A stretch of 64,000 nucleotides of DNA from Nocardioides sp. R-C-SC26 (GTDB lineage: Bacteria > Actinomycetota > Actinomycetes > Propionibacteriales > Nocardioidaceae): NCBI RefSeq assembly GCF_021246465.1, contig NZ_JAHRHK010000005.1, positions 166,958 to 230,957 of the forward strand, written 5' to 3'. A program made the translations under genes and the position numbers. A model generated the notes under the pieces. That model had not been told where the DNA came from, did not search any database, and saw only the letters and a program-made list of their open reading frames with translations. Positions 3,721-55,063 of this stretch are shown in pieces (position 1 is the first letter of the stretch; the number at the start of each line of letters is the position of its first letter).

Positions 3721-5070
3721 TCACCCGTCGCCCCGGGCGGCGTCGGCGAGCGCGTCCGCGGCCACGTCGGCGTCCTCGACGGGGACCAGGCCGGAGGTGA
3801 CGCGGATGTGCGGGGAGCCGGCGTCACCGGGCGCCAGGAACGGAGCCCCGGCGGCGACGCGGATCCCTGCCGTCGTCAGGTGCAGCAGGGCCTTCCGCTC
3901 GTCGGCGACGGGCAGCCACAGGTTGATCCCGTCGGGCACGGCGGTGCGCACGCCGCGAGATTCGAGTGCGGCGCAGAGCGTGTGCTGGCGGGCGTAGTAC
4001 TGACGGCGGGCCTCGGAGACCTCGTCGAGTGAGCGCGCCTGGGTCAGCAGGTCGAGCAGGATCGTCTGCACCATCCGCGATGTCCACGCCGGTCCGAGCA
4101 TGCGGCGCGCGACGATGGCGTCCACCAGCGACGACGGTCCGCCGAGCGCCGCGATCCGCAGGTCGGGACCATGCGACTTGGAGTAGGACCGCACGTGCAC
4201 GACCCGGTCGGGCAGGTGAGTGCCGAGGGACACGTCGGGCGCGGTGGAGATCCAGCCGGAATGGTCGTCCTCGATGATCCACGGACCGTCGTCGCGCTGA
4301 CGGCGCACCAGTCGCGCCAGTGCCGCGGCACGGGCCGTCGACATCGAGACCCCGGTCGGGTTGTGGGCACGCGGTTGCAGCAGCACGGCGACGGGGCGGG
4401 TCGCCAGGGCCCTGCGCAGCGACTCCGGCCGCACCCCCTCGGCGTCCAGCTCCAGCGGCACGATCTCGGCGCCGAGCGCCTCGACGAGGTCGAAGAACGG
4501 TGGGAAGCCGGGCGACTCCACGGCGACGCGGTCGCCGAAGGAGACCAGGTGCTCCAGGGTGCGCGCGATCCCGTCCGTGGCGCCGTCGGCCACCGTCAGT
4601 GTCTGCACGGGGTAGGGCCATGATGCGGCGAGCACGTCGCGCAGAGCCGGCACCACGGGCTCGGCCTGGTAGGCCCAGGTGCCCGCTCGCTCGGAGACGC
4701 GTTGCAGGGCGGGACCGAGCGCGGGCAACAGCGCGGGGTCGGGCGTTCCTCGGGAGAGGTCGAGCCGGCTCGCCTCCGGGACGGCGCCCACCAGCCCGCG
4801 TTGCCGCGGGCTGAGCCACGCCGTCGGCTCGTCGCGGACGAACGTGCCCGCGCGGCCACGGGAGACGACCAGCCCGGTTCGCCGCAGTGCCTGCCACGCG
4901 GCACTGACGGTCGCGGGGGACACGCCGAGCTCGGCGGCGACGTCGCGCACGGTGGGCAGACGCTCACCGGGTGCGAGCGCGCCGGCCCTGATCGAACGGG
5001 AGAACGCGCCGGCGATACCGCGCGGCGTCCGATCCTCCAGGCCCGAGAGATCGACCGCGGTCGCTGCCAT
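3721..5070 (-). CDS. MocR-type regulator (GntR winged helix + aminotransferase-like domain)
   Basis: 449 residues. Residues ~10-75 form a GntR winged helix-turn-helix (LPTVRDVAAELGVSPATVSA). The rest is a fold-type I aminotransferase domain with the PLP lysine in HVRSYSKSHGPDLRIAAL. MocR proteins sense a small amine or PLP-reactive ligand and usually control a divergent gene. Here the divergent genes form a pyrimidine/beta-alanine catabolic cluster, so a regulator responding to beta-alanine or an amine intermediate is a reasonable inference. The start at 5070 has a strong GGAGG upstream. An open frame extends to 5220 but has no ribosome site or family similarity. Confidence 0.88.
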   Translation of the reverse strand: MAATAVDLSGLEDRTPRGIAGAFSRSIRAGALAPGERLPTVRDVAAELGVSPATVSAAWQALRRTGLVVSRGRAGTFVRDEPTAWLSPRQRGLVGAVPEASRLDLSRGTPDPALLPALGPALQRVSERAGTWAYQAEPVVPALRDVLAASWPYPVQTLTVADGATDGIARTLEHLVSFGDRVAVESPGFPPFFDLVEALGAEIVPLELDAEGVRPESLRRALATRPVAVLLQPRAHNPTGVSMSTARAAALARLVRRQRDDGPWIIEDDHSGWISTAPDVSLGTHLPDRVVHVRSYSKSHGPDLRIAALGGPSSLVDAIVARRMLGPAWTSRMVQTILLDLLTQARSLDEVSEARRQYYARQHTLCAALESRGVRTAVPDGINLWLPVADERKALLHLTTAGIRVAAGAPFLAPGDAGSPHIRVTSGLVPVEDADVAADALADAARGDG

Positions 5071-19048: not shown

Positions 19049-19098
19049 ACCACCGCCGTCCCCGGACGTGCGTCCACGGGGCGCGTCGATTGAGGGAG

Positions 19099-19230
19099 CG
19101 GTGCCCGGGAGAGGGTTTGCCCGGTCGCGGTCGGGCGAGCGGTGACCTAGAGAGGAAACTCAGACTCAGTTCCCGCACTGCCTCACCGCTCGGCCTCGGG
19201 AGACGCGTCGAAGCCGCAGTAGCTCACCGC
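19099..19230. repeat. Four-copy 17-mer cluster 1 (GCGGTGASNNNCWGAGG)
   Basis: Copies at 19099-19115 (+), 19139-19155 (+), 19173-19189 (-) and 19214-19230 (-). This is the most divergent cluster: copy 1 has GCGGTGCCC and copies 3-4 end in GCGG instead of GAGG. It occupies the 336-bp gene-free space between the histidine phosphatase and the DUF559 gene. Nothing else is recognisable there. Confidence 0.7.
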
Positions 19231-19383: not shown

Positions 19384-20346
19384 ATGCGTCCGATCCCCGA
19401 GGAACTCACGACAGGCCCCTTCACCTACGCCACCGCCGCCCTGCACGGCGTCCCGGGGCACATGCTGACGGGGCGTCGATTCACGCGCATCTATCCGCGG
19501 GTATGGCGCTGGACAGGGCTCGAGCTCACGCATCGACAGCAGATCGAGGCCGCGCGGCTGGCGTTGCCCGCGGACGCGAGGCTCACCGGAATCACCCGGC
19601 TGCAGATTGCCGGTTTCAACGGCGGGCCGCTGACCCCGTTGCGCTTCGTCGTCGCCCGCGACCACCACATCTCGCTCGACGGCATCTTTCTGCACCGCAC
19701 CAAGCGGCTCCCACCTACGGACGAGGTAGGCGTGACTCCGGCGGCAGCGTTCGTCGCCTACTGCGGCCTGGCGCGTGTCATCGACGTGATCCAAGCGGGG
19801 GATTGGTTGCTGGCCCAGGGCCTCATGACCACCACCGAGCTCGGGTTGCTGGTGACAGAGGCGCCCTGGCGGGCCGGGGCTCATCAGGCCGGCTGGGTCC
19901 TCCGGCGCCTGCGACCGGGTGTCGCCTCCCGATCGGAGTCGGTGGTGAGGACCTTGCTCGACTTCGCCGGCGTCGAGGTCCCCGAGGTGAACGGCGCCCT
20001 GGTGCTGGACGGGCGCGAGCTGCATTCAGACCTGCTCTATCGACGTTGGGGACTCGTGATCGAGTTCGAGGGACGGCAGCACCAGGCCGACCGGGTCCAG
20101 TACCTCAACGATCTTGGGCGCTACGCCCGGTATCGGGACCACGGGCTGGAGTACCTGCAGCTGACCGGAGAGGATCTACGGACTCCCCAGCATCTGGTCC
20201 GTCGTGTGCACCGGGCGCTCGTTCGTCGTGGGTATGACGGAGCTCAGCCCGACTTCGGTGGCGCATGGCGCCAGCTGTGGCGCTCGGTGACGGCGGCCGC
20301 CGGCCCGCGCCCCGATCGCGCCGACCTGAGTCGGGCCTCGGCCTAG
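19384..20346 (+). CDS. DUF559 (Vsr-like nuclease fold) protein with AbiEi-like N-terminus
   Basis: 320 residues. The N-terminal ~150 residues resemble the AbiEi-type antitoxin region often found in actinobacterial DUF559 proteins (YATAALHGVPGHML, RIYPRVWRW). The C-terminal ~110 residues carry the DUF559 core: LHSDLLYRRWGLVIEFEGRQ, a PD-(D/E)xK-like motif, then YARYRDHGLEYLQLTGEDL. The family fold is that of very-short-patch-repair endonucleases, but enzymatic activity is rarely shown. I chose the ATG at 19384. An ATG at 19345 would add 13 residues overlapping repeat-flank sequence. It is bracketed by two four-copy repeat clusters. Confidence 0.82.
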   Translation: MRPIPEELTTGPFTYATAALHGVPGHMLTGRRFTRIYPRVWRWTGLELTHRQQIEAARLALPADARLTGITRLQIAGFNGGPLTPLRFVVARDHHISLDGIFLHRTKRLPPTDEVGVTPAAAFVAYCGLARVIDVIQAGDWLLAQGLMTTTELGLLVTEAPWRAGAHQAGWVLRRLRPGVASRSESVVRTLLDFAGVEVPEVNGALVLDGRELHSDLLYRRWGLVIEFEGRQHQADRVQYLNDLGRYARYRDHGLEYLQLTGEDLRTPQHLVRRVHRALVRRGYDGAQPDFGGAWRQLWRSVTAAAGPRPDRADLSRASA

Positions 20347-20402: not shown

Positions 20403-20536
20403 GCGGTGAGATGCGGAGGATTCCGCCGGGTTCTTACCTGGGAGCGGTGAGCTACAGAGGAATCGCCGACCCAGAACCCTCTGTGGGTCACCGCGCCCCG
20501 GGCCGGCGTCGGGCTGAAACCTCTGCAGGTCACCGC
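20403..20536. repeat. Four-copy 17-mer cluster 2 (GCGGTGASNNNCWGAGG)
   Basis: Copies at 20403-20419 (+), 20444-20460 (+), 20478-20494 (-) and 20520-20536 (-), all with intact GCGGTGA and GAGG ends but variable middles (ATGCG, CTACA, CCACA, CTGCA read in motif orientation). Most copies are followed by (A/T)(A/T)TC. It fills most of the 228-bp space before the VanZ-RDD gene. Confidence 0.85.
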
Positions 20537-32017: not shown

Positions 32018-33124
32018 ATGGGGGTCGTCGGGAGCGTGGACCGCACGCAGCGGCGTTTCACTCCGCTGGGCTTCCCCCTCGCCGTCATCTACAAGTTCTT
32101 CGACGACCAGGGCAACTACCTCTCGGCGGCGATCACCTACTACGCCTTCATCGCGATCTTCCCCCTGCTGCTCCTGGCCTCCTCCATCTTCGGCTTCATC
32201 CTGCAGGGCGATCCCGAGCTGCAGCAGCAGGTGCTGGACTCGGCGCTCGCGACGTTCCCGATCGTCGGCGACGAGCTCGGTCGGCCGCAGGGCCTGCAGG
32301 GTTCGACCGGTGCCGTCGTCGTCGGGGCGTTGGCGGCCCTCTACGGTGCACTCGGCCTCGGCCAGGCCATCCAGAACCTGATGGCGACGGCGTGGGCGAT
32401 CCCGCGTAACAGCCGACCCAACCCGTTCCTGCTGCGGCTCAAGAGTCTGCTGCTGCTGATGTTCGCCGGCCTCGCCGTGCTCGCGCTCTCGGTCTTCTCC
32501 GCGCTCGGGTCCAACACCCAGGTCTTCGGCGAGTTCACCGACGGCGCGATCGGGTGGAGCATCCGCCTCGGCACGGTGCTCGTCGTCGCGCTCGTGCTGA
32601 CCTCGCTCTTCCGCTTCGCCGCCGCCCGCCGCCACTCCTGGCGCAGCGCGGCCCCGGGGGGCTTCACCGTCGCGTTGCTGTGGCAGCTGCTGCAGTACAT
32701 CGGCACGATCTACGTGACCAACGTGCTCACCGGACCGGCGAGCCTGAACAAGACCTTCGGCTTCGTCCTCGGTCTGATCGGCCTCATCTACATCGCCTCC
32801 GTGATGGCCGTGCTCGGCGTCCAGGTCAACGTCGTGCTCGCGCGACGGCTCTGGCCGCGGGCGCTGCTGACGCCGTTCACCGATGCGGTCGACCTGACCG
32901 ACGCAGATCGGCGCGCCTATGCGATGTACGCGCAGATGCAGCGGCACAAGGGTTTCGAGACCGTGGTGGTGCGCTTCGACGGCCGCGACGGCGACACCCA
33001 CGAGATCGTGCTGGAGCCCGACCGCAACAAGCCCGACCTGCGGGGAGCCTCGACGCCGGTGCCGGGCGAGCATGCCGCGCCGTCCGCGCCGTCCGCGCCG
33101 TCCGCCCCGCCGGCTGTCGACTGA
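32018..33124 (+). CDS. YihY/BrkB-family inner-membrane protein
   Basis: 368 residues. The family hallmark LSAAITYYAFIAIFPLLLLA follows the first ~30 residues, then six or so membrane helices, ending at about residue 290 with a charged cytoplasmic tail and a low-complexity Ala/Pro/Ser end. The family is widespread and often mislabelled as ribonuclease BN. Its role is unknown, with transport or envelope function suspected. Confidence 0.88.
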   Translation: MGVVGSVDRTQRRFTPLGFPLAVIYKFFDDQGNYLSAAITYYAFIAIFPLLLLASSIFGFILQGDPELQQQVLDSALATFPIVGDELGRPQGLQGSTGAVVVGALAALYGALGLGQAIQNLMATAWAIPRNSRPNPFLLRLKSLLLLMFAGLAVLALSVFSALGSNTQVFGEFTDGAIGWSIRLGTVLVVALVLTSLFRFAAARRHSWRSAAPGGFTVALLWQLLQYIGTIYVTNVLTGPASLNKTFGFVLGLIGLIYIASVMAVLGVQVNVVLARRLWPRALLTPFTDAVDLTDADRRAYAMYAQMQRHKGFETVVVRFDGRDGDTHEIVLEPDRNKPDLRGASTPVPGEHAAPSAPSAPSAPPAVD

Positions 33125-33181: not shown

Positions 33182-33315
33182 GCGGTGAGTCACAGAGGAT
33201 TCGCCGGCGTGTGGGCGTGGGGGCGGTGAGGTGCAGAGGAAATGCGCCCCGCGATACCTCAGGAGGTCACCGCCGCCCCCTCGGACGTCGGCGCGATACC
33301 TCAGTAACTCACCGC
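33182..33315. repeat. Four-copy 17-mer cluster 3 (GCGGTGASNNNCWGAGG)
   Basis: Copies at 33182-33198 (+), 33223-33239 (+), 33257-33273 (-) and 33299-33315 (-). Spacing between copies is almost identical to cluster 2. It lies between the convergent BrkB-like and phosphatase genes, so it covers both 3' ends. Confidence 0.87.
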
Positions 33316-33346: not shown

Positions 33347-34102
33347 TCAGGCGCGCAGCCGAGAGCGCAGCGCGGCGAGGATGTCGTCGTCGAGGCCGAG
33401 GCCGTCGCGCAGGTAGCCGTCGAGCGAGCCGTACTCCGCATCCGCCGTGGTGTAGGCCGCGTCCAGGTAGGACAGGTCGGCGACCATGGTCGGCTCGAAG
33501 GTGGCGACGCGGTCGGGGCCGAGATGCTCGGCGACCAGGCCGAGGTACTTCTCGCGGGTGCCCGCCGACCGGTTGTTCGTCTCGAGGTAGTCCGTCTCGA
33601 CGACGCCGCGCTCCACGCCCGCCACGTGCAGCATCAGCGCGGCGGCCCACCCGGTGCGGTCCTTGCCCGCGGTGCAGTGGAACAGCATCGGCGCGGACGA
33701 CGTCGCGACGGCACGGAGGACCGTTGCGAACGACGTGCGGGCGTCGGGATCGGTGACGAAGCGGCGGTAGACCCCGATGATCGCGGCGCGCGCGGCTTCG
33801 GCGTCGGGCAGCTCGGCACCGGTGCCGGGCGGGATCCCCTTGATCTCGGCGTGAGTCCAGGTGGCGCCGGGGATCTCGATGTCGGGATGCGCCTCGACCT
33901 CGTAGTCGTCGCGCAGGTCGTAGATCGCGGCGATCCCCAGGTCCGCCAGCGTCGCGGCATCCTCGTCGAGGAGTTGCAGCTCGTTCGAGCGGTAGACCAC
34001 GCCGCGGCGCAGTCCGGCGTCGGCGTCTGCCACATCACGGAAGTTGTCGGCCGAGGCGAGTCGGATCATCTCCTCGCCGAACTGCACGTCGTCGTGGCTC
34101 AC
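33347..34102 (-). CDS. PtpB-like tyrosine/dual-specificity or lipid phosphatase
   Basis: 251 residues. The signature loop Cx5R is in MLFHCTAGKDRTGWAAALM, with AGKDR as in the mycobacterial MptpB and other triple-specificity phosphatases. The N-terminal RLASADNFRDV and RRGVVYRSNELQLL segments are typical. No signal peptide is evident. It acts on phosphotyrosine or phosphoinositides in relatives; the target here is unknown. It converges on the BrkB-like gene across repeat cluster 3. Confidence 0.88.
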   Translation of the reverse strand: MSHDDVQFGEEMIRLASADNFRDVADADAGLRRGVVYRSNELQLLDEDAATLADLGIAAIYDLRDDYEVEAHPDIEIPGATWTHAEIKGIPPGTGAELPDAEAARAAIIGVYRRFVTDPDARTSFATVLRAVATSSAPMLFHCTAGKDRTGWAAALMLHVAGVERGVVETDYLETNNRSAGTREKYLGLVAEHLGPDRVATFEPTMVADLSYLDAAYTTADAEYGSLDGYLRDGLGLDDDILAALRSRLRA

Positions 34103-51227: not shown

Positions 51228-52833
51228 GACCACCGGCCTCCCGTTCGAGCAGACCGAGATGCACCCCCAGCGTTGGGGCTCGCCCGACCGCGCCACGACG
51301 CTCCCCGAGCAGGCCCGTGGCCTGGTCGACTTCGCCTTCGGGCTCCGGTCGACTCCGGCCGATGTCGAGGTGGCGCTGCCGCCGCTCGCCGTGGACGCCG
51401 CTCACGTGCAGGCCCTCGCCGACCTGCTCGGTGCCGAGCACGTGCTCACCGACGACGCCGACCGCCGCCAGCGCACCCGCGGCAAGTCGACCCCCGACCT
51501 GCTCCGTGCTCGCACCGGTGACCTCAGCGACGCCCCCGACGTCGTCGTCCGCCCGGCCGACCACGAGCAGGTCGCCGCGGTGCTCGACTACGCCGTGCGG
51601 CATCATCTCGCCGTCGTGCCGTTCGGCGGCGGCACCTGCGTCACCGGGGGCCTCGCCGCGCGACGCGACGGATTCGCCGGCCTGATCTCTCTCGACCTCG
51701 TGCGGATGAAGCGGCTGCTCGCGGTCGACCACACCTCGATGACGGCGGTGCTCGAGCCCGGTCTCCGCGGCCCCGAGGCCGAGGCACTCCTCGCCGCCGA
51801 GGGCCTCACGCTCGGCCACTATCCGCAGTCGTTCGAGTTCGCCACCATCGGAGGATTCGCCGCCACCCGCTCCAGCGGGCAGAGCAGCGCCGGCTACGGC
51901 CGCTTCGACGCCCTCGTCGTCGCGCTCCGCGTCGCCACGCCGCGCGGTGAGATGCGCCTGGGTTCCTCTCCCGCCAATGCGGCCGGCCCCGACCTGCGCC
52001 AGCTGATTCTCGGCTCCGAGGGCGCCTTCGGTGTGATCACCGAGGTCACGGTGCGCGTGCGCCGCCTGCCGGCCCAGAAGGTCTACGAGGGCTGGCGCTG
52101 GGCCAGCTTCGAGGCGGGCGCCGACGCCATGCGCACTCTCGCCCAGGCCGGTCTGCTGCCCACCGTGCTCCGCCTCTCCGATGAGAACGAGACCGCGATC
52201 AACCTGGCCAAGCCCGACCAGATCGGCGACAGCCCCGAGGCGACCGACGAGTCCGCGGGCGGCTGCCTGATGATCGTCGGCTACGAGGGCGAGCCGGACG
52301 CCGTCCAGGCGAAGCAGCAGGCCGTCACCGCAGTTCTGACCGGGCTCGGCGGGGAGGCACTGGGTACCGCGCCGGGTGAGTCGTGGGCGCACGGTCGCTT
52401 CGACGCCCCGTACCTGCGCGACTCCCTGCTCGACGTCGGCGTGCTCGTCGAGACGATGGAGACGGCGACGTTCTGGAGCAACCGCCAGGCGCTCTACGAC
52501 GGCGTGCGCACCGCCCTGGTCGACTCCCTGGGCGAGGGTGCGCTGGTGCTCTGCCACATCTCGCACGTCTACGAGACCGGCTGCTCGCTCTACTTCACGG
52601 TGGCAGCGAAGGCGGGCGACGACCCGCTGCCGCAGTGGATGGCTGCCAAGTCCGCGGCCTCCGACGCGATGATGGCTGCGGGTGCCACCATCACCCACCA
52701 CCACGCCGTCGGCACCGACCACCGGCCCTGGCTGACCAGCGAGATCGGAGATCTCGGCGCCTCGGTCCTTCGCGCCGTCAAGGCCGACCTCGACCCCACC
52801 GGCATCCTCAACCCGGGAGTGCTGATCCCGTGA
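51223..52833 (+). CDS. FAD-linked oxidase, alkyldihydroxyacetonephosphate synthase-like
   Basis: 536 residues. FAD_binding_4 region: VVVRPADHEQVAAVLDYAV, VVPFGGGTCVTGGLAARRDG, EFATIGGFAATRSSGQSSAG, ILGSEGAFGVITEVTVRVRR. The C-terminal half has CHISHVYETGCSLYFTVAAK and the HHHAVGTDHRPWL histidine cluster also seen in AGPS. AGPS swaps the acyl chain of acyl-DHAP for an alkyl chain in ether-lipid synthesis. GlpD next door makes DHAP and the following gene is a diacylglycerol kinase, so a glycerolipid substrate is likely. The exact reaction is not established for the actinobacterial group. An ATG at 51259 is a possible alternative start. Confidence 0.87.
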   Translation: MTTTGLPFEQTEMHPQRWGSPDRATTLPEQARGLVDFAFGLRSTPADVEVALPPLAVDAAHVQALADLLGAEHVLTDDADRRQRTRGKSTPDLLRARTGDLSDAPDVVVRPADHEQVAAVLDYAVRHHLAVVPFGGGTCVTGGLAARRDGFAGLISLDLVRMKRLLAVDHTSMTAVLEPGLRGPEAEALLAAEGLTLGHYPQSFEFATIGGFAATRSSGQSSAGYGRFDALVVALRVATPRGEMRLGSSPANAAGPDLRQLILGSEGAFGVITEVTVRVRRLPAQKVYEGWRWASFEAGADAMRTLAQAGLLPTVLRLSDENETAINLAKPDQIGDSPEATDESAGGCLMIVGYEGEPDAVQAKQQAVTAVLTGLGGEALGTAPGESWAHGRFDAPYLRDSLLDVGVLVETMETATFWSNRQALYDGVRTALVDSLGEGALVLCHISHVYETGCSLYFTVAAKAGDDPLPQWMAAKSAASDAMMAAGATITHHHAVGTDHRPWLTSEIGDLGASVLRAVKADLDPTGILNPGVLIP

Positions 52834-53735
52834 CCCGCACCTTCACCTTCCTGGTCAACCCCGCCTCCGGCGGCGGCGCCGCACCTGAGGCCGTCGTGCC
52901 CGTCGCACGGGCGCTGCGCGATGCCGGCGCGCAGGTCGACGTCACCTACTCGCCCGGGCCCCAGGCCATGGCCGCGCTCGTCGACGCCGCGGTCGCACGT
53001 GGCGACGTGGTGGTCTCCGTCGGTGGCGACGGCATGCTCTCCTCCCTCGCCGGAGCCGTCTCCCGTGCCGGCGGCACGTTGGCCGTCCTCCCGGCCGGCC
53101 GCGGCAACGACTTCGCCCGCATGCTCGGCCTCCCCGAGGAGCCCGAGGCCCTGGCGCGGCTGCTGCTCGACGCCGCACCGACGTCGGTCGACCTGCTCTC
53201 CTGGACGACGTCGGCCGGCGAGCGTCGCGTCGCGGGTTCGGTGTACTGCGGCGTCGACGCCCGCGCCGCGGAGCTCGTCGACCGTGCCCACTGGCTCCCG
53301 CGCAAGCTCCAGTACCCCTACGCCGCAGTCCGCTCCCTGGCCACCTACCGTCCCGCGCGGTTCCGAGTCGACGTCGACGGCCGGGTCAGCGAGCACCTCG
53401 CGTCGAACGTCGTGATCGCGAACTCGGCGTACTACGGCAAGGGCATGAAGATCGCCCCCGACGCCGTGGTGGACGACGGTCTCCTCGACGTCGTCATCAT
53501 CGAGGCGGCCTCGCGACTGGCGCTGGTGCGCTCGTTGCCCAAGGTCTACGACGGCTCCCACGTGGCGCTGCCCCAGGTCACCCTGCTGCGCGGACGTCGG
53601 GTCTCGGTCGCCGCCTCGGTGCGCGGCGGGGTACCCGCAGGCGGTGACGGCGAGCCGCTCGGCGTCCTGCCCGGCCTCGACGCCGAGCCCGCCGTCGCCG
53701 AGGTGCTGCCGGGCGCGCTCATGATCCTGCGCTGA
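52830..53735 (+). CDS. Diacylglycerol kinase family lipid kinase
   Basis: 301 residues. LVNPASGGGAAPEAVVPVAR at the start, the nucleotide loop VVVSVGGDGMLSSLAGAV, LPAGRGNDFARMLGLPEEPE, and the C-terminal NSAYYGKGMKIAPDAVVDDG. It phosphorylates diacylglycerol or another lipid alcohol. The GTG overlaps the flavoprotein stop by four bases, so the two are coupled. The homologue Rv2252 in M. tuberculosis is a characterised diacylglycerol kinase, and the gene order is conserved. Confidence 0.92.
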   Translation: MTRTFTFLVNPASGGGAAPEAVVPVARALRDAGAQVDVTYSPGPQAMAALVDAAVARGDVVVSVGGDGMLSSLAGAVSRAGGTLAVLPAGRGNDFARMLGLPEEPEALARLLLDAAPTSVDLLSWTTSAGERRVAGSVYCGVDARAAELVDRAHWLPRKLQYPYAAVRSLATYRPARFRVDVDGRVSEHLASNVVIANSAYYGKGMKIAPDAVVDDGLLDVVIIEAASRLALVRSLPKVYDGSHVALPQVTLLRGRRVSVAASVRGGVPAGGDGEPLGVLPGLDAEPAVAEVLPGALMILR

Positions 53736-53787: not shown

Positions 53788-53911
53788 GCGGTGACCTGCT
53801 GAGGATTCGCGCGGCTCTGGCGCGGTGGGACGGTGACCTGCTGAGGGTCGGTACGTGCCGATTCCTCAGCGGCTCACCGCCGTGGGCCTCAGGACCTCCG
53901 CCACTCACCGC
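53788..53911. repeat. Four-copy 17-mer cluster 4 (GCGGTGASNNNCWGAGG)
   Basis: Copies at 53788-53804 (+), 53830-53846 (+), 53864-53880 (-) and 53895-53911 (-). Most copies match the consensus at all fixed positions; copy 2 begins ACGG and copy 4 has CCGC next to the CTCC end. It lies in the 274-bp space between the lipid kinase and the SGNH gene. Confidence 0.85.
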
Positions 53912-54009: not shown

Positions 54010-54990
54010 ATGACGACGCTGACTTCCCCCTCGCTCTCGGGCCGCCTTCCCCGTTCGCTCGCGGCTCTTCTCGCGGTGCTGATAACCGCGACCATGCTCC
54101 TGTTCACCGCCACCGCGGCGGACGCCGTCCAGCCGAGCCGCGACTACCCGCGGATCCCCAAGAAGTGCGCCTCGTCGCAGGAGAAGATCCCGCAGAAGCC
54201 GGTGGTCTGCCACCTCAACCCGTATAAGGCCGGTCGTCCGACCGTCGTCATGTGGGGCGACTCCCACGCCTGGATGTTCATCCCCGCCGTGCAGAAGGCA
54301 GCCGGGGGCAAGGTCAACCTGGTGGCCTCGATGATGGGCGGCTGCCCCGCGATGGACAACCAGGTACGCGCCAGCGACAGCACGCCGGCCTGCTTCCAGT
54401 CCAACCGGATGGGTATCGAGTACGTCCGCAGCCTCGTCGACGACAACCAGATCGTCCGCGTGATCATCGGAGGCAGCTGGCAGCGCTACCGCCAGGCCGT
54501 GAAGACCCGGGCCGGCGACTACGCCGAGACCATGGGCCGCGCCATGGTGAGCGGCGCGCCGCGGCTCGCGCGGACGCTCTCGGCGATGGATGTGCCGGTC
54601 AAGGTGATCGGCCAGGTCGCGACGGTGCCCGAGAAGCGCGCCGCGTGCCGCGCCGGCGAGAAGCCCTATGCGTGCAACGTGCCCAAGAGCAAGGCCCTCG
54701 CCGACGCCGCGGGAACGAAGTCGTGGGTCACCAAGCTCTTCAAGCCGGCCAAGCCCGGCAAGCTGATCGACGTCAACGGCCTCTACTGCAAGGGCTCGGT
54801 CTGCAAGGGCAAGGTCGGCAAGACCTTCACCTGGTGGGACGACCTGCACCTGAGCGCCACGACCTCCAAGCGCGCGTCCCGCTTCTTCAAGCCGATCATC
54901 ACCGAGGCCCTCGCGGCCGCGACGCCGACCAACCCCGGCGGTGGGGGCGGCGGTGGCGGTGGCTGCACGCTGCTGATCTTCTGCCGCTGA
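54010..54990 (+). CDS. Secreted SGNH-hydrolase-like protein with Gly9-Cys tail
   Basis: 326 residues. A signal peptide (LAALLAVLITATMLLFTATA then ADA) precedes the mature protein. SGNH block I is TVVMWGDSHAWMF and the terminal catalytic Asp/His is in TWWDDLHLSATTS, as in the periplasmic SGNH domains that accompany OafA-type acyltransferases. At least six cysteines suggest disulfides. The C-terminus is nine glycines followed by CTLLIFCR, which is not part of the fold. It probably deacylates or acylates a cell-wall glycan. It is monocistronic. Confidence 0.85.
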   Translation: MTTLTSPSLSGRLPRSLAALLAVLITATMLLFTATAADAVQPSRDYPRIPKKCASSQEKIPQKPVVCHLNPYKAGRPTVVMWGDSHAWMFIPAVQKAAGGKVNLVASMMGGCPAMDNQVRASDSTPACFQSNRMGIEYVRSLVDDNQIVRVIIGGSWQRYRQAVKTRAGDYAETMGRAMVSGAPRLARTLSAMDVPVKVIGQVATVPEKRAACRAGEKPYACNVPKSKALADAAGTKSWVTKLFKPAKPGKLIDVNGLYCKGSVCKGKVGKTFTWWDDLHLSATTSKRASRFFKPIITEALAAATPTNPGGGGGGGGGCTLLIFCR

Positions 54991-55046: not shown

Positions 55047-55063
55047 GCGGTGAGCGGCTGAGG
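55047..55063 (+). repeat. Single copy of the GCGGTGASNNNCWGAGG 17-mer
   Basis: GCGGTGAGCGGCTGAGG, a full match, between the convergent SGNH and condensation-GNAT genes. No companion copies are seen within 100 bp. The following bases TTTCCGCGC match the 3' extension of the clustered copies. Confidence 0.75.

Follow-up and report, generated by a model that had tools for sequence, protein, structure and literature searches.

The four clusters of a degenerate 17-mer found in a 64,000-nucleotide stretch of the Nocardioides sp. R-C-SC26 genome (hereafter the window; contig NZ_JAHRHK010000005.1) belong to a dispersed repeat family, and we consider it fairly probable that this family has a dedicated partner protein, the product of one intact repeat-flanked gene, which we infer to bind the repeats, dimerise and cleave DNA, with cleavage driving their spread. 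The starting points of this reading are direct observations, namely the repeat family, its spacing grammar, its lineage dialects, its location, its partnership with the gene, and a predicted protein fold in which acidic and His residues are invariant.

Four clusters in the window belong to a dispersed repeat family

Each cluster in the window has its four copies in the order + + - -, as the first-pass annotation had described. Cluster 1 (19098..19230; copies at 19098-19114 +, 19139-19155 +, 19173-19189 - and 19214-19230 -) starts one base before the position given there and is degenerate and weak, with 2, 1, 2 and 1 mismatches per copy. Cluster 2 (20403..20536) has copies at 20403-20419 +, 20444-20460 +, 20478-20494 - and 20520-20536 -, while cluster 3 (33182..33315; 33182-33198 +, 33223-33239 +, 33257-33273 -, 33299-33315 -) lies between a convergent pair of genes, BrkB-like (32018-33124 +) and Y_phosphatase3 (33347-34102 -). 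Cluster 4 (53788..53911; 53788-53804 +, 53830-53846 +, 53864-53880 -, 53895-53911 -) lies between tandem YegS/DAGK-like (52830-53735 +) and SGNH (54094-54990 +) genes. The gaps between copies are 24, 17 and 25 in clusters 2 and 3, and 25, 17 and 14 in cluster 4, where the last gap is thus 14 and not 24 or 25. A lone 17-mer at 55047..55063 (+), also reported previously, is an exact match, with no second copy within 1 kb at ≤2 mismatches. In total, the window holds 19 matches to the 17-mer at ≤2 mismatches, against 6.17 expected from 100 shuffles (maximum 13).

The genome-wide search that the annotation had proposed gave counts above chance, with non-random order and spacing. Across the 3,717,144 bases and 106 contigs of the source genome, GCGGTGASNNNCNGAGG has 56 exact matches and its reversed control none. 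At ≤3 mismatches, 28 places carry the inner inverted pair with its copies exactly 17 bases apart, again with none for the control. The sequences of 24 of these 28 places were analysed (all except C23:50361, C55:2, C86:117519 and C96:157272). Four copies scored above threshold at 14 of the 24, with one to three at the remainder, so that "exactly four copies" describes a common state and not a rule. The outer gaps at the 24 places were mostly 24-25 (15 for ++ and 12 for --), with 14-15 at three each and a single gap of 10, so that the two main classes of outer gap are separated by roughly one turn of the helix.

Two elements, at C55:1-93 and C96:157271-157363, are identical over 93 nt as far as the end of copy 4, beyond which they diverge. 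Both lie at contig ends, and elements of this kind probably break the assembly.

Elements across the genus share outer bases, lineage dialects and a spacing grammar

The pattern GCGGTGA-N37-TCACCGC is present in 43 of 215 genus genomes, compared with 2 of 215 for the reversed control, and 30 of the 215 contain at least two such elements (maximum 42). The exact 21-base form of the motif is found in the source genome only among the 215. The second half of the motif varies by genome, being GCCACCG, GCAACCG, TGAACCG or GGACCGG elsewhere versus CWGAGG in the source genome, and certain genomes have a dialect in common. Thus the outer seven bases are common, the inner bases form a lineage dialect and the three or four bases between them vary. 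A scan of genome contigs with a 22-base version of the motif returned 15 stretches in scattered taxa, each with a single match, which we read as chance.

Spacing was examined in 80 regions from 11 other genomes. Neighbouring copies that face each other (+ -) were 17 bases apart in 139 of 141 cases, which partly reflects the choice of regions by that spacing; a free-spacing scan of one genome, G085, allowed gaps of 24-52 and placed 42 of 54 matches at exactly 37. In the same 80 regions, 50 of 54 back-to-back pairs of copies (- +) were 11-12, 21-23, 31-33 or 44 bases apart, and 32 of 35 same-direction pairs were 13-15 or 24-25 apart. The steps of ~10.5 bp fit proteins sitting on one face of double-stranded DNA, and this helical phasing is a strong but not conclusive sign of such binding, because tandem duplication could also preserve spacing. 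Copy orders include ++--, +-+- and +++----, even inside a single genome. In other genomes the element pairs show an apparent polarity, strongest in G085 and G049, which is not seen in the source genome.

The first-pass annotation had also placed the clusters at 3' ends, which proved correct for the wider family. Of 107 elements with called genes, 47 lie in convergent, 50 in tandem and 4 in divergent spaces, and 6 inside a called gene; comparison spaces from the same regions, between genes ≥100 bp apart and including those that bear elements, numbered 64 convergent, 156 tandem and 93 divergent (gene calls from a custom codon-score script).

Two local patterns are recorded separately. In G085 (L092-L121) the arms of a pair fall into two types by their centre bases, GCCT with GCTG being the commonest combination (16 of 37 pairs), and in G084 three identical element pairs stand ~185 bp apart (L163, 4050, 4235 and 4421), suggesting that a longer unit was duplicated in tandem.

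A gene between clusters 1 and 2 is partnered with the repeats

Clusters 1 and 2 form the left and right flanks of a gene that is absent from the first-pass annotation (19384..20346, +, 320 aa; a longer ORF from 19345 would give 333 aa) and whose product is a predicted nuclease. When proteins near elements were clustered, this family was the second most widespread, with 6 ORFs in 5 genomes; the most widespread within 3.5 kb of elements was another family (26 ORFs, 10 genomes). The partner gene stands between two arrays in the source genome, G029, G071 and G073, in the last of which it is broken, and in G058 an array is seen on one side only. The four intact proteins are ~50% identical.

A search of the genus with these proteins, made regardless of elements and scoring the ten best candidates of each genome, identified the gene at E ≤1e-40 in 61 of 215, nearly always in one copy and in several cases carrying a stop. 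It is present in 18 of the 30 genomes with at least two elements versus 43 of the 185 others (Fisher p 1e-4). These 43 of the 61 gene-bearing genomes have fewer than two GCGGTGA-type pairs, and several among them use other dialects or spacing; de novo reading of the flanks recovered repeats beside the gene in genomes with a score of zero, such as G072, where GCGGTGGGTTNGGCTCGG stands on either side of it. Conversely, 12 of the 30 genomes with at least two elements have no close homologue, including G085, which has the most exact pairs (42). Nine of these 12 have weak paralogues only, which are not element-flanked, and at 20 loci of weak homologues in element-bearing, gene-less genomes a GCGGTGA pair was found at none. 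Elements can therefore outlast the protein or rely on a different one.

The partnership is well supported by the flanks themselves. An inverted pair of 17-17-17 form, scored at ≥13 of 17 matching, lies within 520 bp of the gene at 25 of 32 genus loci and in the distal stretches of 3 of the same 32. Loops of 15 and 19 score equally (26 and 25 of 32), since a sliding window picks up one and the same palindrome at each loop length; the result therefore demonstrates flanking palindromes and not an exact loop. Likewise, among retrieved loci, the left and right 450-bp flanks have a 13-mer in common for 51 of 69 homologues versus 12 of 163 control genes (Fisher 1.7e-24), where the 69 exclude duplicate fetches and the broken copy in the source genome. 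The 51 comprise 23 of 32 homologues in the genus and 28 of the other 37 (which include the weaker same-genus L222 and L229), and weak paralogues gave 2 of 20. With 11-mers the separation is poorer: one is common to both flanks in 85 of 163 controls and 8 of 20 weak paralogues, as well as in 62 of 69 homologues. A plain hairpin score of ≥13 was reached in either flank by 32 of 69 homologues, 6 of 20 weak paralogues and 14 of 163 controls, and in both flanks by 10 of 69, 0 of 20 and 0 of 163, respectively. The window protein had no match at 1e-5 in phage and plasmid records.

The source genome also holds a second, frame-broken copy of the gene (G000:C38:110848-111709; L289, about 1001-1862), which is flanked on both sides by remains of a second dialect, GCGGTGAGTMTGGGACGG-like at ≤3 mismatches. 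This dialect occurs elsewhere at C38:38977, itself one of the 24 inner-pair places analysed, and near C86:68282, with matches at positions 4978, 5011 and 5084 of L082 and at position 9283 of L091. A gene together with its own dialect is thus seen twice in a single genome.

The partner protein is predicted to join an AbiEi-like domain to a nuclease domain

The window protein had no Pfam match up to E 0.1. Among 30 homologues, AbiEi_4 was matched in 4 (best 1.7e-5) and DUF559 weakly in 2, PADLOC AbiEi models matched up to 16 of the 30, and no transposase family was found in any of these members using Pfam, NCBIfam and PADLOC. Searching PDB sequences with the 30-row profile returned nothing up to E 1. 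AlphaFold2 modelling from the 30-row alignment gave a pLDDT of 92.9 and a pTM of 0.88. In this model residues 182-284 align with the catalytic domain of I-Bth0305I (3r3p; Z 12.3, rmsd 2.6, 97 aligned) and residues 180-283 with Vsr (1cw0; Z 10.1, rmsd 2.2, 99 aligned), while residues 1-177 align with AbiEi (6y8q; Z 10.2, rmsd 5.5 over 170 residues) and the N-terminal part with Rv2827c at Z 6.5. Foldseek E-values were weak, the best being 0.027 for a mitoribosome chain, with 3r3p at 0.07 and a probability of 1.00. Residues E185, D216, E227, E229, H233 and D243 do not vary among the 30 members, and E185, D216, H233 and D243 may, by their order, correspond to an EDxHD site. The partner is thus predicted to consist of an AbiEi-like DNA-binding domain (about 1-177) and a Vsr/I-Bth0305I-like nuclease domain of EDxHD type (about 180-285). 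No DUF1814 toxin was found beside the window gene, where the neighbours match histidine phosphatase and VanZ families.

AbiEi and Rv2827c are reported to recognise inverted repeats in the promoters of their own genes (PMC7319586), and I-Bth0305I to dimerise on a target just short of 60 bp (PMC3943268). By analogy, these properties suggest that the modelled protein may sit as a dimer on the 51-bp pair, with its nuclease domains at the 17-bp centre.

The partnership extends beyond the genus

Across the class, 41 of 394 genomes, in 15 of 137 genera, match the partner protein at E ≤1e-25. The palindromes flanking these genes differ strongly by lineage (CCACTTTTGGAAG, GAGAAGTGGGGCACCTGAG and GTTGATCTTGGAGTTGTTCGGC). 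In the one distant family tried, GTTGATCTTGGAGTTGTTCGGC was predicted from its position beside the gene to be dispersed in its own genomes, and at ≤1 mismatch 118, 105, 81 and 2 arm copies were found in four genomes of its genus, with none for the control; many among the matches listed form inverted pairs 49-50 apart. In one of these distant genomes 23 elements were read, each 71-72 bp long, of which 13 lie in tandem, 7 in convergent and 3 in divergent spaces. Three of the 23 are identical, two having related left flanks and the third lying in unrelated flanks.

Proposed mechanism and alternative explanations

In the mechanism that we propose, each 17-mer is a putative binding site of the partner protein, and the unit is the inverted pair of 17 + 17 + 17 = 51 bp, to which a dimer most likely binds. 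Its N-terminal, AbiEi-like domains would contact the two 17-mers, its two EDxHD/Vsr-like nuclease domains would face the variable 17-bp centre, and additional copies would be placed at helical intervals. Cleavage at an element or close to it, and the repair that follows, would most likely copy and homogenise elements within a genome, giving one dialect per lineage, and purifying selection would leave elements mainly downstream of genes. Spread is supported by the identical 72-mer found at loci whose flanks are unrelated, as well as by the source-genome elements that are identical for 93 nt and then differ. Whether the system amounts to a class-wide actinobacterial form of miniature replicating DNA, in which palindromes are copied by an EDxHD/Vsr-like nuclease of homing type that reads them as a dimer through its AbiEi-like domain, we regard as evenly balanced. 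If it does, REP-like repeats would have an origin independent of HUH transposases, and the dialect would co-evolve with the protein.

Alternatively, the protein could be a site-specific DNA-binding or chromosome-organising factor, or an autoregulator like the AbiEi antitoxins, with elements serving as arrays useful to the host and a nuclease domain that is vestigial or otherwise used. The helical phasing of copies, the array upstream of the gene in the window, the promoter binding by AbiEi and Rv2827c noted above (PMC7319586), and the elements of G085, which among the matches listed spread from 24 kb to 3.63 Mb of a 4.0-Mb chromosome, are all consistent with such a factor. However, the six putative active-site residues are invariant in every member examined, divergent spaces, which would contain promoters, are mostly avoided (4 of 107), 154 of 215 genus genomes have no gene match at 1e-40, and the dialect changes wholesale between lineages, and we judge this explanation rather unlikely.

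A second alternative is that the repeats are MITE-like remnants of a conventional transposon, with the flanking palindromes as its ends. While this would account for a gene between inverted repeats, for short dispersed copies and for identical copies with differing flanks, many loci carry a complete palindrome or tandem array on each side and not one terminal repeat, there is usually one gene copy per genus genome, and the absence of any transposase family from the 30 members again argues against it, making this origin improbable.

An ordinary RNA function, as bidirectional terminators or mRNA 3'-end hairpins, appears very improbable. It would fit the distribution of elements, with 47 of 107 in convergent-gene spaces and so few in divergent ones, and the predicted + strand folds of clusters 2 and 3 (z -5.9 and -5.7); however, such strong folds are expected from the inverted copy order and so give no evidence for RNA function, and the z for cluster 1 on the same strand is only -0.5. 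The first-pass annotation had suggested that copies 2/3 and 1/4 might be pairing arms, and the covariation tests that it proposed did not bear this out. In the source genome, identity at the variable centre bases was 0.555 for copies 2/3 compared with 0.525 for shuffled partners (22 pairs) and 0.357 for copies 1/4 compared with 0.439 (14 pairs), with no covariation in either. In eight other genomes, the paired arms were less alike than chance, being identical at 151 of 364 comparisons of the four centre bases (0.415) versus 0.567 when re-paired (s.d. 0.024), and no excess of pairing was found in the spacer bases adjoining the arms. These tests lend no support to an RNA or single-stranded DNA hairpin under pairing selection. 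Furthermore, spacing steps of ~10.5 bp have no obvious RNA reason, the dialect is common genome-wide and tied to one gene, and Rfam gave 0 matches in the window at gathering score.

Of the three options that the annotation had offered, there was no sign of a 3'-end RNA structure, while the protein-binding array and the REP/BIME-like element both gained support: copies are spaced by approximately helical turns, and a family that is dispersed and specific to its dialect lies on both sides of a single dedicated gene. These two options seem to be one thing.

Finally, REPIN-RAYT proper, in which a Y1 HUH tyrosine transposase elsewhere moves the repeats and the nuclease gene is flanked by chance or as cargo, matches the organisation (inverted doublets, dispersal, dialects and a dedicated flanked gene) but is exceedingly improbable, as our search for a RAYT partner detected PF01797 in 5 of 14 control genomes but in none of 43 genus genomes, of which 22 carry GCGGTGA elements and 21 lack them, the consensus has no GTAG end, and at 51 of 69 homologues the two flanks of the nuclease gene have a 13-mer in common.

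Comparison with known systems

Non-coding repeats of the REP-like kind are common in bacterial genomes, and the RAYT HUH transposase is, to our knowledge, their known dedicated partner. Homing enzymes are known for single targets, whereas here there are tens of dispersed palindromes and the DNA-binding domain is AbiEi-like. None-the-less, the predicted nuclease fold matches the catalytic domain of I-Bth0305I, whose dimer target of just under 60 bp is near the 51-bp pair in length (PMC3943268). Vsr mismatch endonuclease and DUF559 likewise resemble the partner in predicted fold (Z 10.1 for Vsr) and by the weak Pfam DUF559 matches in 2 of 30 members. The AbiEi and Rv2827c type IV antitoxins resemble the partner in the predicted N-terminal fold, and inverted-repeat binding is known for them (PMC7319586); unlike them, the partner has this domain fused to a nuclease domain, its sites are dispersed over the genome and the window gene has no adjacent toxin gene.

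Among REP-like palindromes, the CGTC-tagged REPs are described as a large class with no known RAYT partner (PMC3733652), but the consensus here has no CGTC tag and a partner gene was found. In that nearest comparison, the words actinobacteria and actinomycet- are absent from the text (PMC3733652), and among the matches listed from the open-licence PMC literature there was no description of such a repeat-nuclease partnership. The closest resemblance is to REPIN-RAYT, which is described as also having inverted doublets at a conserved distance, mostly outside genes, lineage-specific and with a repeat-flanked dedicated gene (PMC3116915, PMC3733652). It differs in that the partner here is predicted to be an AbiEi-like and Vsr/EDxHD-like nuclease and not a Y1 HUH transposase, in that the GTAG tag is absent from the consensus GCGGTGASNNNCWGAGG and from the other dialects, and in that the unit is 51 bp, phased as double-stranded DNA, and forms arrays such as ++--. 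The system is therefore organised like REPIN-RAYT with an unrelated nuclease as partner, and is not a member of it.

A second, unrelated type of enzyme thus stands in a RAYT-like relation to its own dispersed palindromes. With one partner gene and elements that can be read from its flanks, the origin of the repeats, their spread and the upkeep of their dialects become directly testable, and flank reading, which worked in the one distant family tried, can be attempted in any genome that bears the gene.
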